This document shows, one piece after another, positions 19,827 through 26,262 of a stretch of DNA of 64,000 nucleotides (position 1 is the first letter of the stretch; every line of letters starts with the position of its first letter). A model generated the notes under the pieces. That model made no database searches. It saw only the letters and a program-made list of their open reading frames with translations, and was not told the origin of the DNA. A program made the translations under genes and the position numbers. The DNA is from Seleniivibrio woodruffii (lineage in GTDB: Bacteria > Chrysiogenota > Deferribacteres > Deferribacterales > Geovibrionaceae), in NCBI RefSeq assembly GCF_004339245.1, contig NZ_SMGG01000004.1, forward strand, positions 558,001 through 622,000. Direction: 5' to 3'.

Positions 19827-20249
19827 ATGGCAGAACAGACAACAATTTCCGCGGAGCCCGACAGGTGGAAAAAACTTGTTGACGAAGCGGTTCAGGCAAA
19901 GGTCTGGGGCATAGCCTCCAGTTTCGATATTTACGACTGCAATCCCGACACGATAAGAAGCGCAGAAGCCATAAAACAGTTCGTTCTCGAACTCTGCGAT
20001 CTCATAGAAATGAAACGTTTCGGAGAAACCGTTGTGGTTCACTTCGGCGAAGACGAAAAGGTCGCCGGATTCTCCATGACCCAGCTGATTGAGACATCCC
20101 TCATTTCGGCGCATTTTGCTAACCTTACAAACACGGTATATCTGGACGTTTTCAGCTGCAAACCCTATGACCCTTCTGTGGTGGAAGCCTTTGCCACAAA
20201 GTTTTTCGGCGGTTCACGCTGCAATACAAACGTTAATCTCAGGTACTGA
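19827..20249 (+). CDS. SpeD-like pyruvoyl-dependent decarboxylase (S-adenosylmethionine decarboxylase family)
   Basis: This 140-residue protein belongs to the short bacterial AdoMet decarboxylase family (PF02675). Aligned to the Thermotoga enzyme, the self-cleaving serine (S63), catalytic histidine (H68) and cysteine (C83) correspond to S91, H96 and C111 with identical spacing. It should therefore cleave itself and form a pyruvoyl cofactor. The neighbours of the serine differ: Glu62 is Thr and His64 is Leu. No aminopropyltransferase gene lies nearby, so the substrate may not be AdoMet; some SpeD homologues are ornithine or arginine decarboxylases. Its stop overlaps the next start (TGATG). Confidence 0.8.
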   Translation: MAEQTTISAEPDRWKKLVDEAVQAKVWGIASSFDIYDCNPDTIRSAEAIKQFVLELCDLIEMKRFGETVVVHFGEDEKVAGFSMTQLIETSLISAHFANLTNTVYLDVFSCKPYDPSVVEAFATKFFGGSRCNTNVNLRY

Positions 20250-21202
20250 TGCTCACCCTTTCAGTTACAGACGACTACGACGGATGCCGCAAACTCTGGG
20301 AACGTTTCATCCCGCAAAACGTAATTTTTGATCTGTGGGACGTGCGCAATTGTTTTCACAGGGCGTTCGGGCGCAGGCTATGCTTTGTAACCGCTGAGAA
20401 GGACGGACTGACAGTGGGCTTTCTGCCCTTGTGCATAGTTCCCGAAACCTCCACCCTAGCCTATTTTCCGGGCGAAACATGGCACGGCAAAACCTGGCTG
20501 GAACAGAACAGAACAGTTGCCGACAGCAGAGAGACACTCAATGCCATGATAGATTTCGCCTGCGAAAAGCACGGCCTAGGATATCACATACGCTACCTTC
20601 TGCCCGACAACGGACTTTCAATAGACGTTGAGGACGAAACGGGATATATCTTCGTTCCCTCAGCCCATTCATGTTCAATGGAGGGGTATTACTCCTCTTT
20701 TTCAGGAAAAAACGCCAAAAAAATGAAAAAGGAATCATCGGTATATGAAGAATCCGTCACCGTAGTTTATGACAGGGCGGAGGATTTCGAAGTGCTCATC
20801 AAAATGAACACCGACAATTTCGGCACTGACTCCTATTTTTCAGATCCCAGATTCGCAGACGGATTCAGGAATCTTGCAAGCTATCTGAACAGAAACGGAA
20901 TGCTTAGGGTAACGTCTGTTCTGGTAGACGGCGAGTTTGCCGCTGTGGATGCCGGAAGCATCTATAAAAACGTTTACACGCTCCTTGCAGGCGGCACATC
21001 ACCTAAATTCAGAGGCATAGCCAAATTTATAAACACGCTCCATCTGAAATACTCATGCGAAATGAATTTTGACCATGCGGATTTTCTCTGCGGCGATTTC
21101 GGCTGGAAAGCCATGTTCCACCTTCAGCCACGCCCGCTTTATAAACTGTCAAACACCGACGAATCCGTCTTCGAAAAATCTGCGGAGGCCTGCCATGCGT
21201 GA
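20249..21202 (+). CDS. GNAT-superfamily acyltransferase (FemAB/BioF2-like)
   Basis: This 317-residue protein looks like the GNAT_acetyltr_6 / FemAB-like class, with two tandem GNAT-type halves. The first half has FVTAEKDGLTVGFLPL. The second has an EFAAVDAGSIYKNVYTLLAGG strand pair, a short loop (SPKFRGIAK) and a DFLCGDFGWK segment, as in enzymes that transfer an aminoacyl or acyl group to an amine. I infer transfer of an acyl or aminoacyl group in a small-molecule pathway. It overlaps its upstream neighbour by one base and its downstream neighbour by eight. The substrate is unknown. Confidence 0.7.
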   Translation: MLTLSVTDDYDGCRKLWERFIPQNVIFDLWDVRNCFHRAFGRRLCFVTAEKDGLTVGFLPLCIVPETSTLAYFPGETWHGKTWLEQNRTVADSRETLNAMIDFACEKHGLGYHIRYLLPDNGLSIDVEDETGYIFVPSAHSCSMEGYYSSFSGKNAKKMKKESSVYEESVTVVYDRAEDFEVLIKMNTDNFGTDSYFSDPRFADGFRNLASYLNRNGMLRVTSVLVDGEFAAVDAGSIYKNVYTLLAGGTSPKFRGIAKFINTLHLKYSCEMNFDHADFLCGDFGWKAMFHLQPRPLYKLSNTDESVFEKSAEACHA

Positions 21203-22421
21203 AATGCGTGTTCTGGTGACGGGTTCAACACCCGACTACAACGAGATAATCCACCAGCGTTACGGAAGCGAGACCCTATTTCTCACCGACAAGAACCAGA
21301 GCGCAGAATGGAACGGATTCAAACCGCCTAAAAAGGATGAATGCCTGTTCGACCTGAGAGATATTTCAGGAGCCGTTGAGGCGATAATTAAACACGCAGA
21401 GACCCACAACATAGGCTTTTCGGGCATAACCTGCTTCGACTGCGAGGCTTTGCCCCTTGCCGCCCGCATAGCTGAGAGGCTCGGACTCAGATTCTCCCCC
21501 CTGGCGGCCATCGAAAACGCACGCTCCAAAGCAGGCTCACACCTCATCTGGCAGACAAAGAGCATCCCATGCCCGCACACAATAAAGCTCTTTTCCCCTG
21601 ACGACGTTGAGCAGGCGGAAAAGACCGCAAAGTTCCCCGCCGTTATAAAACCAGCCACAGGGAGCGGCAGCGAGCTTGTGTTTCTTGTTAAGGATATAGC
21701 GGAGACCGCAGAAAAATATCTGTACATAACCGACAGAATAGGCTGTCACCCGAATCAGCGCATGTACCCCACCTGCGGATGCACCCTTGAGGAATATATC
21801 GAAGGGGACGAGTTCAGCTGCGACTGGGTGATGAAAGACGGACAGGCGGAGATAATACGCATCGCCGAAAAGGTGCGGGATGATTCCCTCTCCTTCGGAA
21901 CGGCTCTGGCATACATTGTTCCCCCCTCAAAGCCTTTGGACACCGAAAAGCTCAAAAAGATACTGGTGAACGGAGCCAGAACCCTCGGTTTCAGCGAAAT
22001 GATAGCAATGACCGACTTTCTGGTGAAGGACGGTGAGATTTATCTCATAGAAATGACTCCCCGTTTCGGCGGCGACTGCCTGCCCGACACCGTAATGGCA
22101 TCCGCCGGATTCGATATTTTCCGTGCGGCTCTGGACTATGCCGCAGACGGCGAAATCTCAGTCCCCGACCTCTGGCTGACAACCGCATCCGTGCGGATTC
22201 TAGCAGACAGAAAAGGCTCGCTGGACAGAGTTGATATTCAGCCTGATGAAAGGATTATCTTCACCCGCATCGAGCGGGAAAAGGGTCACAAAATTGTCCT
22301 GCCCCCCGAAAACTATTTCTCACGGATCATAGGCCATGTGGTCTTCCGCCCCGATGAGAAAAAATGCGTCCACGAGCAGATACGGGAGATACGTTCTAAA
22401 ATTTCGGTGGAATACGCCTGA
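21195..22421 (+). CDS. ATP-grasp ligase
   Basis: This 408-residue ATP-grasp enzyme forms an amide or related bond through an acyl-phosphate. The ATP-binding lysine is in VIKPATGSGS (about residues 150-159), the adenine-contacting acidic stretch is EEYIEGDEFS (about 199-208), and the metal-binding motif is IEMTPRFGGD (about 285-294). The N-terminal pre-ATP-grasp domain is Rossmann-like (RVLVTGS). I place the start at 21195, where GGAGG lies just upstream inside the preceding gene; the in-frame ATG at 21069 is too far inside that gene. The closest functional analogues are amino-acid ligases, but no substrate can be named. Confidence 0.85.
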   Translation: MREMRVLVTGSTPDYNEIIHQRYGSETLFLTDKNQSAEWNGFKPPKKDECLFDLRDISGAVEAIIKHAETHNIGFSGITCFDCEALPLAARIAERLGLRFSPLAAIENARSKAGSHLIWQTKSIPCPHTIKLFSPDDVEQAEKTAKFPAVIKPATGSGSELVFLVKDIAETAEKYLYITDRIGCHPNQRMYPTCGCTLEEYIEGDEFSCDWVMKDGQAEIIRIAEKVRDDSLSFGTALAYIVPPSKPLDTEKLKKILVNGARTLGFSEMIAMTDFLVKDGEIYLIEMTPRFGGDCLPDTVMASAGFDIFRAALDYAADGEISVPDLWLTTASVRILADRKGSLDRVDIQPDERIIFTRIEREKGHKIVLPPENYFSRIIGHVVFRPDEKKCVHEQIREIRSKISVEYA

Positions 22422-23746
22422 TGTATATTGAAGAACACTCGGAGGCGCTGAAACACCTCCTGAAACACCGCACCCCTGCCCTGCCGCAGGAACTTCTGAA
22501 TAAATGCGTTGCAAAAGTACATTCCATGGCGGATGTTTTCCTTTCGGCAGCCGAAAAATTCGGTTCCCCTCTCTATTTTATAGACAAACAGGCACTTTTA
22601 AACAGCGCAGACCTTTTCAGATCGGCTTTTTCGTCAAAATTTGACGACTTCACGCCCTATTTCGCAATGAAAAGCTGTAATCATCCGTATATTATCAGAA
22701 CTCTGGCGGAAGCAGGTTTCGGAATAGACGTTTCAAGCGGCGTTGAGCTTCAGACGGCCATAGGCTGCGGAGCAGAAAAAATAGTGTTCAGCGGCCCCGC
22801 AAAAACGCTGAAAGAACTTTCACTGGCGGCGGAATATTCGGACAGAGTGACCATACTCTGCGACAGCTTCACCGAGCTTAACAAGCTGTCCTCTCTGGGC
22901 AGAAACGTGCGCATAGGCGTGCGGCTCACCACTGAAAATAACCCTCTGTGGCGCAAGTTCGGGATACCGCTGGATGAGCTGCAAAGATTCATCATGACCG
23001 CCGCGGAGATAAAACATATCAGCTTCTGCGGGGTGCAGTTCCACTCAAGCTGGAACCTCACACCGGATAACCACACGGCGCTTATAAAACTCATCGGCGA
23101 AACAATAGCCGAACTGCCGGAAAAATTGAGAAATATGATTGAGTTCATGGACATAGGCGGGGGCTACTGGCCGGAGGACGGCGAATGGCTTCTGGCTGAT
23201 TCCGCAGAGGAGATGAAGCTGAACAAACAGCTGTTAAAGAATCCCTGCGACCCGCTGGATCACCGCTGTGTGCCTTCAACAGGCATAGATATCTATGCGG
23301 ATGCAGTCTGGGCGGCAGTGGAAACTCATATCAGACCGCACCTGAAATGTGCAATATATGCCGAACCGGGCAGATGGGTCTGCCACGAGTCAATCCACCT
23401 TCTTCTGAGGGTTGAGGATATAAAACTTCCGGATATCGCCATAACCGACGGCGGCACGAATATGATAGGCTGGGAAAGGTTCGAGATGGACTACTTTCCG
23501 GTGGTGAACGTTTCAGATATTTCCATGACCGAGCACCCTATGATGATCCTCGGTTCTCTCTGCACGCCCCACGACATCTGGGGACACACATTCCACGGCG
23601 GCGGCGTAAAAATCGGCGACGTACTGGTGATTCCCAATCAGGGGGCATACACCTACAGCCTCAGGCAGAATTTCATTAAATCCGTACCAGAAAGCGTTGT
23701 TTTTGACGGCAAAAACATAAACGGGGTAAATTGCACTTCATTTTAA
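22421..23746 (+). CDS. PLP-dependent fold-type III decarboxylase (DAP/Orn/carboxynorspermidine decarboxylase superfamily)
   Basis: This 441-residue alanine-racemase-fold decarboxylase keeps all the catalytic elements. K84 in FAMKSCNHP forms the PLP aldimine, H208 stacks on the cofactor, G246-G248 and EPGR (315-318) bind its phosphate, and C381 with D385 (LCTPHDIW) form the shared active site across the dimer. The substrate loop CTPHD differs from CESGD in diaminopimelate decarboxylase and CDGLD in ornithine decarboxylase, so the substrate is likely non-standard. It overlaps the ATP-grasp gene by one base (TGATG). A second decarboxylase in the same operon as a SpeD homologue is unusual. Confidence 0.85.
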   Translation: MYIEEHSEALKHLLKHRTPALPQELLNKCVAKVHSMADVFLSAAEKFGSPLYFIDKQALLNSADLFRSAFSSKFDDFTPYFAMKSCNHPYIIRTLAEAGFGIDVSSGVELQTAIGCGAEKIVFSGPAKTLKELSLAAEYSDRVTILCDSFTELNKLSSLGRNVRIGVRLTTENNPLWRKFGIPLDELQRFIMTAAEIKHISFCGVQFHSSWNLTPDNHTALIKLIGETIAELPEKLRNMIEFMDIGGGYWPEDGEWLLADSAEEMKLNKQLLKNPCDPLDHRCVPSTGIDIYADAVWAAVETHIRPHLKCAIYAEPGRWVCHESIHLLLRVEDIKLPDIAITDGGTNMIGWERFEMDYFPVVNVSDISMTEHPMMILGSLCTPHDIWGHTFHGGGVKIGDVLVIPNQGAYTYSLRQNFIKSVPESVVFDGKNINGVNCTSF

Positions 23747-23783: not shown

Positions 23784-24227
23784 ATGAAAAAATCTGCAAT
23801 ATTGTTTCTTTTCTCTTTCGTCGTTCTTTCCTCAACAGCGGCAAAAGCTGACATAAACGTAAATATCGACATAAACGGTATGCCTTCGGTATCCGTTTCC
23901 GCTGACGCAACCGTTGTTCTTATACCGGACACACCCGACGTATATTTTGTGGACAATTCCCAGGAAGATATCTTTTTATGGAACGGTTTCTGGTGGAAAT
24001 CCATGAACGGAAAATGGTTCAAATCCGAGAGTGCAAACAGCGGATGGCAGGTGTTTGTGGGCACACCCCAATTCTTCACCACTGTAAAACCGGATTGGAG
24101 AAAGGAGTATAAGTCAGGCAAATGGAACGGCAAACCCTGGAGATATGAGAAAGTGCCCTATGGTCATATGAAAAAAGGAAAAAAAGATAAAGGGCACGGA
24201 AAAGAAAAAGGTCACAAAAAAGACTGA
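23784..24227 (+). CDS. Small secreted protein, aromatic-rich with Lys/His-rich tail
   Basis: This 147-residue protein has a clear Sec signal peptide ending near AKA-D (residues 22-23). The mature part has short alternating beta-like segments (INVNIDINGMPSVSVSADA), then repeated Trp/Phe/Tyr elements (WNGFWWKS, GKWFKS, KWNGKPWRYEK). It ends in a basic tail of repeated Gly, Lys and His, which could bind metal or polyanions. I recognise a family of periplasmic WNG-type small proteins but no known function. AGGAGG precedes the ATG. It lies 37 bases after the PLP decarboxylase gene and may be in the same transcript. Confidence 0.75.
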   Translation: MKKSAILFLFSFVVLSSTAAKADINVNIDINGMPSVSVSADATVVLIPDTPDVYFVDNSQEDIFLWNGFWWKSMNGKWFKSESANSGWQVFVGTPQFFTTVKPDWRKEYKSGKWNGKPWRYEKVPYGHMKKGKKDKGHGKEKGHKKD

Positions 24228-24239
24228 TAAATCAAATAA

Positions 24240-24277
24240 AACGCCGTACTTTCAAAGTAGTGCGGCGTTATTTTTTC
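24240..24277. terminator. Bidirectional terminator between convergent genes
   Basis: An AACGCCG / CGGCGTT stem extended by TACT/AGTA with a small bulge is followed by a T-run on the plus strand and by T residues on the minus strand. It separates the secreted-protein gene from the convergent acyltransferase gene, whose stop codon lies inside it. Confidence 0.8.
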
Positions 24278-26262
24278 AAAATATCGTCAAAAATCCATTT
24301 CCCCTGCTCCACAACATATTTCGAACCGTAAATTGAAAGATGGTCGTCATCCGCATAAAGGGATTTTCCGCTCTCGGTAAGCCTACATTCACCGTCTTTG
24401 CAAAATACGTTCTGAATATCTATGACTTTTACGTTTGTCTTCTGCCTCACACGCTCCAGAACCTTTAAAACATCCTCGTTCCGCTCTTCATAATGGCTGT
24501 AGGGAAGAGTTGAGGACACGAATGAGGTCAGCGCAGGAAAAACGTGTTTAAAATACTCTATTTTACCCATTTCCGAAGGCACGTCATAGGGCACTTCCGG
24601 AACGTCCATAACAAAATAAACGTTCTTGCCCGCCCGCTCCAGAGAACCCACTGTGCGGATGAGCGCCTCTTCGAAAACTTTCAGATTGTCCTTCTCTATA
24701 ACGTTTTTGGTAAGGGCACTGTCCAGAGTTATCTCGGTGCCGAAATCGTTGCCCAGCATGGGTTTTCCGGAGTAAACCTCCCATCTGCCAACAAGGAAGA
24801 TATCCCTTATTCCGGCATCGGCGGTCACTTCATTAAAGATAATATCGTTAAACTGGCGGCAGTTGGTGGGAACATCGTTCAGCAGAATACGCACCAGACG
24901 CAGAGGCGGACATGAGGACTTTCCGGCAAAAACTCCGGTAATGCCGTTCTCTTGACCGTATCTGTTCATTCCGTCTGTCAGCGAAAGCGCATGGGAATCC
25001 CCCCACACTATGAAGCTGGGCAGTCTGTCGCTGTCGCCCATGCGGCAGAGATTGCTTATCTTGGCTTTCATTGGGTCACGGTAGTAGCATTCGGTGCTTC
25101 TGTAGGTGCTCTCCTGAACGTCTGTAACAACGCTTACGGATTCGGGCATCCTAGAGGGCATTCCGTCTGTCTTATAGACCACAGCACCCGCCAGAGTGAA
25201 CAGAGCCATCACCGCCGCTGTGCCGATGAACAGCCTGCGGGGGCTTGTGAACTTCATCCGCCTGAAAGGCTGTTCCACAAGATAAAACGATATAACTGCC
25301 AGAAGGAAAGTAAGCCCTATTGCAAACCAGTCGGAAACGAAAAATACGTCACCCACCAGATTCTTATAATAATTACGGAACGCTATGAAAGGCCAGTGCC
25401 ACAGATAGAGCGCATATGACAGCAGACCGATGAACACCATCGGACGGAGGGAAAGGATGCGGTTTATGATACCCCTCTCACCTGCGTATATCACCAGTGC
25501 AGTACCCACGCACGGAATAAGCGCACTGTAGCCCGGAAAAGGAGTTGCGGAATTGAAAAGCACCACGGATGCCGCTATCATCCCGAAACCTGCCGCAGAA
25601 AGCACGTTAAGCACTGCATAGTTATCGGTGCGTCTGAAAACCCCCAGAGCCAGCATAGAGCCGAGCATCAGCTCCCAAGCCCTTGTGGGCAGAAGATAAA
25701 AAGACATTTCAGGCTTACGGTAGGTCAGAAAAACACTGAGCAGAAGGGACACGGCAAAAACCGCCGTAACGGCGAATCCTGCGTTTTTCCGCTTTCTGTA
25801 GAGCCAGAAAAGAAACAGCGGGAAAAGAATATAAAACTGTTCCTCAACTCCCAGCGACCATGTATGCAATAGGGGTTTTGTCTCCGCCGCCTCGTCAAAA
25901 TAGCCGCTCTGTTTCCAGAAAAAAAAGTTTGAGCCAAAAAACACCGTTGCGGCAACACTCTTTCCGAAATTGCGGAAATGCTCCGGCAGAAGCAGAAACC
26001 ACGACATGATTATGGTGGCAAACATCATGAAATAGAGCGCAGGGAAGATACGCTTGATACGGCGCACATAGAAGTTTGAAACGGAGAAAGTGCCCTCCGC
26101 CATCTCAGCGGAGATTATCCCCGTTATGAGGTAGCCGGAAATTACAAAAAAGATGTCCACGCCCACATAGCCGCCGGAAAAAGCTGATATCCCCGCATGA
26201 TAGAGAATCACCGGCAAAACGGCAATCGACCTGAGTCCGTCAACGTCTTTTCTGTACTGCAC
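24268..26262 (-). CDS. OafA/OatA-type O-acyltransferase with C-terminal SGNH domain
   Basis: This 664-residue enzyme acylates cell-surface polysaccharide or lipopolysaccharide. The N-terminal acyltransferase-3 domain (about residues 1-350, around ten membrane spans) opens with RKDVDGLRSIAVL and contains the HTWSLGVEEQFY motif. The C-terminal periplasmic SGNH hydrolase-like domain has GDSHALS (near residue 418) and the DDDHLS catalytic Asp-His near the end. The start is GTG at 26262, the only start codon between an in-frame stop and the conserved N-terminus, with GGCGGTG just upstream. The target polymer is unknown. Confidence 0.92.
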   Translation of the reverse strand: MQYRKDVDGLRSIAVLPVILYHAGISAFSGGYVGVDIFFVISGYLITGIISAEMAEGTFSVSNFYVRRIKRIFPALYFMMFATIIMSWFLLLPEHFRNFGKSVAATVFFGSNFFFWKQSGYFDEAAETKPLLHTWSLGVEEQFYILFPLFLFWLYRKRKNAGFAVTAVFAVSLLLSVFLTYRKPEMSFYLLPTRAWELMLGSMLALGVFRRTDNYAVLNVLSAAGFGMIAASVVLFNSATPFPGYSALIPCVGTALVIYAGERGIINRILSLRPMVFIGLLSYALYLWHWPFIAFRNYYKNLVGDVFFVSDWFAIGLTFLLAVISFYLVEQPFRRMKFTSPRRLFIGTAAVMALFTLAGAVVYKTDGMPSRMPESVSVVTDVQESTYRSTECYYRDPMKAKISNLCRMGDSDRLPSFIVWGDSHALSLTDGMNRYGQENGITGVFAGKSSCPPLRLVRILLNDVPTNCRQFNDIIFNEVTADAGIRDIFLVGRWEVYSGKPMLGNDFGTEITLDSALTKNVIEKDNLKVFEEALIRTVGSLERAGKNVYFVMDVPEVPYDVPSEMGKIEYFKHVFPALTSFVSSTLPYSHYEERNEDVLKVLERVRQKTNVKVIDIQNVFCKDGECRLTESGKSLYADDDHLSIYGSKYVVEQGKWIFDDILKK

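Follow-up and report, generated by a model that had tools for sequence, protein, structure and literature searches.

What do the four mutually overlapping plus-strand genes that fill positions 19827-23746 of the window (the whole 64,000-nucleotide stretch of Seleniivibrio woodruffii DNA analyzed here) make together? A first-pass annotation had read them as an amine-building operon of four named enzyme families with one-base and eight-base overlaps. Open reading frames and Pfam matches, all of which exceed the curated cut-offs, confirm both the families and the overlaps (1 base for SPED/FEM, 8 for FEM/GRASP and 1 for GRASP/PLP). We denote the genes as follows.

19827..20249, + strand: SPED, a SpeD-like pyruvoyl decarboxylase (140 aa; Pfam AdoMet_dc, 3.1e-21)
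20249..21202, + strand: FEM, a FemX-like tandem-GNAT transferase (317 aa; Pfam Acetyltransf_6, 5.7e-16)
21195..22421, + strand: GRASP, an ATP-grasp carboxylate-amine ligase (408 aa with the ATG at 21195 as start, though the in-frame ORF extends further back, to 21069; Pfam ATP-grasp_4, 5.3e-15)
22421..23746, + strand: PLP, a fold-III (alanine-racemase fold) PLP decarboxylase (441 aa; Pfam Orn_Arg_deC_N, 6.5e-29)

Across the genus Seleniivibrio the synonymous sites of the operon genes are near saturation and within-genus pN/pS is low (0.14-0.18 for SPED; 0.25-0.42 for FEM, GRASP and PLP), which indicates purifying selection on all four genes, strongest on SPED. This selection, together with the recurrence of the same gene order in other phyla, argues that the block is not a chance arrangement.

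The complete set in the identical order SPED-FEM-GRASP-PLP was identified in 21 genomes from at least three phyla: five of Seleniivibrio (Deferribacterota), five of Omnitrophota, ten of Desulfobacterota and G1075, which belongs to a further group. Two more operons are split across contig ends (G200, G434). The operon lies at one common genomic place in all five Seleniivibrio genomes, and the PLP gene is absent from the searched genomes of the other genera of the family. A search of the PLP alignment against 84,980 species genomes returned four Seleniivibrio-group records, two Omnitrophota, two Desulfatibacillum and one remote match; all eight close matches sit in the SPED-FEM-GRASP-PLP order. 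Using profile searches of 395 Desulfobacterota and 384 Omnitrophota genomes, followed by reading of the neighbourhoods, we found the PLP clade in 14 of the Desulfobacterota genomes, the SPED clade in 17 and both in 12 (12/14 PLP-positive genomes; Fisher p ~2e-17, a value that ignores shared ancestry). The co-occurrence of the four families was one of the checks proposed at first reading, with scattering of the genes among relatives as the counter-case; the genes are not scattered and their order is fixed across phyla. PLP relatives were absent from the viral contigs and plasmids searched, and a viral or plasmid origin was rejected. Sinorhizobium phages yielded distant matches only, and the homologue in Sinorhizobium phage phiN3 is a bona fide AdoMet decarboxylase (AdoMetDC) (PMC9992855).

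Departures from the full set indicate which parts hold together. In G111 the PLP-clade exception is no more than a fragment, lying where the contig ends. FEM-GRASP-PLP is retained in G199, whose genome gave no SPED match in the profile search, as expected if SPED merely supplies a common diamine. Standalone SPED-clade copies occur in five Desulfobacterota genomes in different surroundings (L125, L126, L130, L131, L132), so SPED need not be pathway-specific. Most of these copies lie near a PALP-fold enzyme resembling tryptophan synthase beta 2 and also near genes resembling indolepyruvate oxidoreductase subunits. In G1142 and G1027, more distant relatives of PLP adjoin other ATP-grasp genes, one of them of the D-Ala-D-Ala ligase type, without SPED or FEM. 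This pairing makes ligase and decarboxylase look like the stable core of the system and suggests ligation followed by decarboxylation. In the Omnitrophota genome G653 only SPED-FEM is left, adjoining an IS30-like transposase gene (L141 6880-9816), probably as a recent truncation.

Li et al. 2023 (PMC10407285) established that SpeD homologues have turned into decarboxylases of ornithine (SpeDC) or of arginine (SpeDA). In SpeDC the catalytic Ser, His and Cys are surrounded by four diagnostic residues, Gln, Thr, Phe and Tyr (residue order taken from the text of that paper, not its figure). Alignment revealed Gln86, Thr90, Ser91, His96, Phe97, Tyr105 and Cys111 in 23/23 operon SPEDs. The SpeDC signature residues are absent from 9/9 AdoMetDC-type sequences, in which Val, Glu/Asp, Thr and Ala occupy the corresponding four positions. 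In the SPED tree the operon clade is sister to Omnitrophota SpeDC-like proteins, apart from AdoMetDC, with support of 97/84 for this grouping in a tree that does not include the assayed SpeDC sequences; the inner forks are weak because only 128 columns were available. PDB sequence searches with SPED and with FEM gave nothing usable. Judged by residues and tree position, SPED is SpeDC-like (ornithine type) and not an AdoMet decarboxylase, and it is predicted to cleave itself at Thr90-Ser91. We regard amine making by SPED as moderately supported.

The operon SPEDs share with SpeDC the Gln/Thr/Phe/Tyr signature, the Ser/His/Cys catalytic residues and the sister position in the tree, but form a distinct tight clade. 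Peculiar to this clade is Asn99, present in 23/23 operon SPEDs, where AdoMetDC has Pro (HTWP, after the catalytic His) and SpeDC has Glu/Asp; the invariant Asn99 leaves room for a substrate other than ornithine. The partners also differ: SpeDC genes are accompanied by speE, casdh, hss or speY, and SPED by FEM, ATP-grasp and PLP genes. Elsewhere in the AdoMet_dc family, proteins from two genomes of the window's phylum (L015, L016) are without the pyruvoyl-forming Ser (TADIRVSI, TPEIRISI), one of them also without the catalytic His, and may be inactive or recruited for another job. Long SpeD-domain ORFs of 259-300 aa in order relatives of Seleniivibrio (L021-L028) may be fusions of SpeD and SpeDC type.

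The Pfam AdoMet_dc match of SPED would fit an ordinary AdoMet decarboxylase of SpeD class 1b that serves spermidine synthesis or another aminopropyl transfer. We rejected this role as highly improbable: SPED carries the SpeDC residues and not those of AdoMetDC, it scores 23.3 bits on the AdoMetDC equivalog TIGR03330 (cut-off 75.65), and a family search found no aminopropyltransferase (SpeE) gene in the five Seleniivibrio genomes. A complete speA-CASDH-CASDC-speB cluster lies apart from the operon (G000:C3:562286-567507; L195 4286-9508), and by its gene content spermidine in Seleniivibrio is made by the carboxyspermidine-type route (CASDH/CASDC). With this cluster elsewhere, the operon was rejected as the ordinary spermidine supply. 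The first-pass view that ordinary spermidine synthesis does not fit is thereby upheld, and its counter-case, a SpeD serving a spermidine synthase encoded elsewhere, did not materialize in Seleniivibrio. The sister genus G005 has SpeE and an ordinary SpeD, and the Omnitrophota operon genome G060 has SpeE elsewhere in its genome. The AdoMet_dc annotation is thus misleading for operon SPEDs.

The nearest solved relative of PLP by single sequence is FslC (7KH2), an N-citrylornithine decarboxylase. The PLP profile matches SbnH (6KNH), diaminopimelate decarboxylases (DAPDCs), FslC and BtrK, and scores the DAPDCs nearly as high as SbnH. The specificity positions of fold-III decarboxylases were listed by Michael and co-workers, and FigC His357 and SbnH Lys347 contact the citryl group (PMC7857480). 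By alignment, the active-site Cys loop of PLP is CTPHD (C381-T-P-H384-D): Thr382 follows the catalytic Cys, as in SbnH, where ODC, ADC and DAPDC are acidic; His384 aligns with FigC His357 and SbnH Lys347; and Trp351 of the specificity helix aligns with SbnH Trp309, a position held by Arg in DAPDC. Cys-Glu is retained in the LysA that this genome also encodes. We rejected PLP as a diaminopimelate decarboxylase (LysA) on its TIGR01048 score (135.9 bits, below the cut-off of 297.9), on Trp351 in place of Arg and on the separate LysA-like gene. Besides LysA, the genome encodes another fold-III decarboxylase, whose loop reads CENCD (L167, G000:C3:1104347-1105090); similar matches occur in all five Seleniivibrio.

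These active-site residues, together with the pairing of the gene with ligases, suggest that PLP probably takes as its substrate an amino acid that has already been conjugated, and does not make a second free amine. The first-pass logic of two decarboxylases supplying amines to two amide-forming enzymes thus survives as a unit of four enzymes, and gives way on the substrate of PLP. The same kinship raises the question of a siderophore or metallophore, in which PLP would act like SbnH or FslC on a citryl-type conjugate and GRASP would replace the NIS synthetase. PLP shares with SbnH (staphyloferrin B) and FigC/FslC (rhizoferrin) the fold and a basic residue replacing the acidic one of ODC and DAPDC, and with SbnH the Thr-Pro of the Cys loop (PMC7857480); it also shares the CTPxD / HisD loop with the citryl-amino-acid decarboxylases, a group that includes SbnH, FigC and AcsE. 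A citrate synthase-like gene lies downstream in two Desulfobacterota loci. PLP differs from these enzymes in its low identity and its Trp-rich conserved positions, and a citrate-using NIS synthetase was not recognised among its flanking genes. Against the siderophore reading, genes for uptake, export or NIS synthetases do not recur beside the operon in the neighbourhoods read. The SbnH and FslC pathways, moreover, require no separate diamine maker, and the operon hosts come from mostly anaerobic groups. A siderophore-like product, one of the options listed at first reading, gained no positive evidence beyond the decarboxylase kinship, and we consider it improbable.

The predicted structure of GRASP (pLDDT 90) matches the L-amino acid ligase BL00235 (3VOT) with a TM of ~0.8, combining an ATP-grasp domain with the BL00235 three-domain fold. 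GRASP has this fold and domain in common with the BL00235-type ligases, BacD and RizA, but identity is ~20% and GRASP sits in a fixed operon with decarboxylases. For the FEM model (pLDDT 80), Foldseek ranks 1-7 are FemX (TM 0.56-0.59), and the fold matches include FemX, FemA, MprF and the tRNA-dependent Sba18/Sbb17 (TM 0.5-0.6, ~12% identity). FEM shares the tandem-GNAT fold with FemX/MprF and with the tRNA-dependent natural-product transferases VlmA, PacB, Orf11 and Sba18, again at just ~12% identity. CoA-using tandem GNATs rank just behind the FemX-type matches, and on these models the donor of FEM may be an aminoacyl-tRNA or an acyl-CoA. Lys287 of FEM is invariant in the alignment; the catalytic residue of FemXWv is Lys305.

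The place of FemX, FemA and MprF among the best fold matches would also suit surface modification, with FEM attaching an amine-bearing group made by the other three genes to peptidoglycan or lipids. An AT3-SGNH acyltransferase gene downstream of the operon in Seleniivibrio (window 24268-26262) points the same way, but this gene is convergent and is missing beside the operons of other phyla. Small molecules are also substrates of FemX-fold enzymes (PMC12945691), and a conserved cell-wall gene was not found nearby. On balance we hold surface modification to be unlikely, about as much so as the siderophore. Two more AT3-SGNH-like proteins are encoded in tandem in the same genome (L195 12077-15969).

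Instead, we propose, with a probability of roughly 0.6, that the four genes form a mobile cassette dedicated to the biosynthesis of a small polyamine conjugate with amide linkages. In this pathway SPED would cleave itself at Thr90-Ser91 to gain its pyruvoyl group and would then decarboxylate L-ornithine or a close relative to a diamine, e.g. putrescine, as its signature residues and tree position predict. GRASP, going by its family and fold, would activate a carboxylate, most simply the side chain of an acidic amino acid, and join it to an amine. PLP would decarboxylate the conjugated amino acid at its alpha position and thereby expose a new amine, as its active-site residues and gene pairing suggest. 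FEM, by its fold, would transfer an aminoacyl or acyl group onto an amine. GRASP, PLP and FEM are named here without implying an order of their steps. In this reading an amide analogue of a polyamine would be made, additional to ordinary spermidine. Beta-alanyl- or 4-aminobutyryl-putrescine would be the amide analogue of spermidine or homospermidine, and either of them carrying one more acyl or aminoacyl group would be an example of a fitting product. Tentatively, and with considerably less confidence than in the cassette itself, we suggest that such an amide-linked triamine, optionally tRNA-aminoacylated, built by neither aminopropyltransferase nor carboxyspermidine chemistry and distributed among anaerobic bacteria by horizontal transfer, could represent a new polyamine class.

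Every enzyme family involved is known, and a description of the four-gene combination was not found in the open-access literature searched, a scope without most subscription journals. The butirosin pair BtrJ-BtrK resembles the proposed scheme in that an ATP-grasp enzyme loads an amino acid and a fold-III PLP decarboxylase then acts, but it uses a carrier protein, of which there is none in the operon. By analogy, the nearest published logic of diamine maker plus ATP-grasp amide ligase is the fungal E-64 pathway, in which a dedicated amine supply and an ATP-grasp amide ligase yield putrescine, cadaverine or agmatine amides (PMC12568646). That pathway differs in its unrelated ATP-grasp enzyme, its ANL amide synthetase and its PLP-dependent, not pyruvoyl, decarboxylase, and is without a second decarboxylation of the conjugate or a FemX-like enzyme. 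Through the operon, SpeD homologues of an orphan clade gain a defined set of partners with a testable chemical logic, and as only four small enzymes are involved, it is easily rebuilt in E. coli. Should the product be an amide-type polyamine, bacteria of several phyla would possess a new chemistry for making polyamine-like molecules.

Comparison of the flanking genes revealed an orthologous TetR gene (41-65% identity) immediately upstream of the operon and co-directional with it in five loci (L032 of Seleniivibrio; L118, L119 and L121 of Desulfobacterota; L213 of G1075); in the window, the 380 bases upstream of the operon contain no TetR gene. This placement makes it appear that a TetR regulator controls the operon in several lineages. 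Besides TetR in these five loci, no recurring flanking gene was identified in the neighbourhoods read. The TetR gene, along with the make-up of the set (four small enzymes on common metabolites), could also fit a TetR-induced N-acylated amine or peptide that acts as a compatible solute or protects from stress. Solute-related or stress genes do not recur nearby, however, and we find a stress protectant harder to credit than either the siderophore or surface modification, though not as far-fetched as the AdoMet decarboxylase; the polyamine-conjugate cassette remains our preferred reading.

Downstream, a gene for a secreted Lys/His-rich protein (23784-24227) had been noted at first reading to follow without a terminator. 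The interval from 23746 to the start of this gene (23784) yielded no terminator, and a hairpin resembling a strong terminator follows the gene at 24240-24269, so that part of the observation stands. The gene is confined to part of the genus Seleniivibrio and was not seen elsewhere; for this reason it does not belong to the cassette, and we rejected it as a fifth operon gene and treat it as a local neighbour only. EamA/DMT transporter genes lie near several copies, at varying positions. In other Seleniivibrio, a gene for a membrane sensor-GGDEF protein, missing from the window, separates the EamA gene from the operon (L034 7638-9209, with equivalents in L031-L033).
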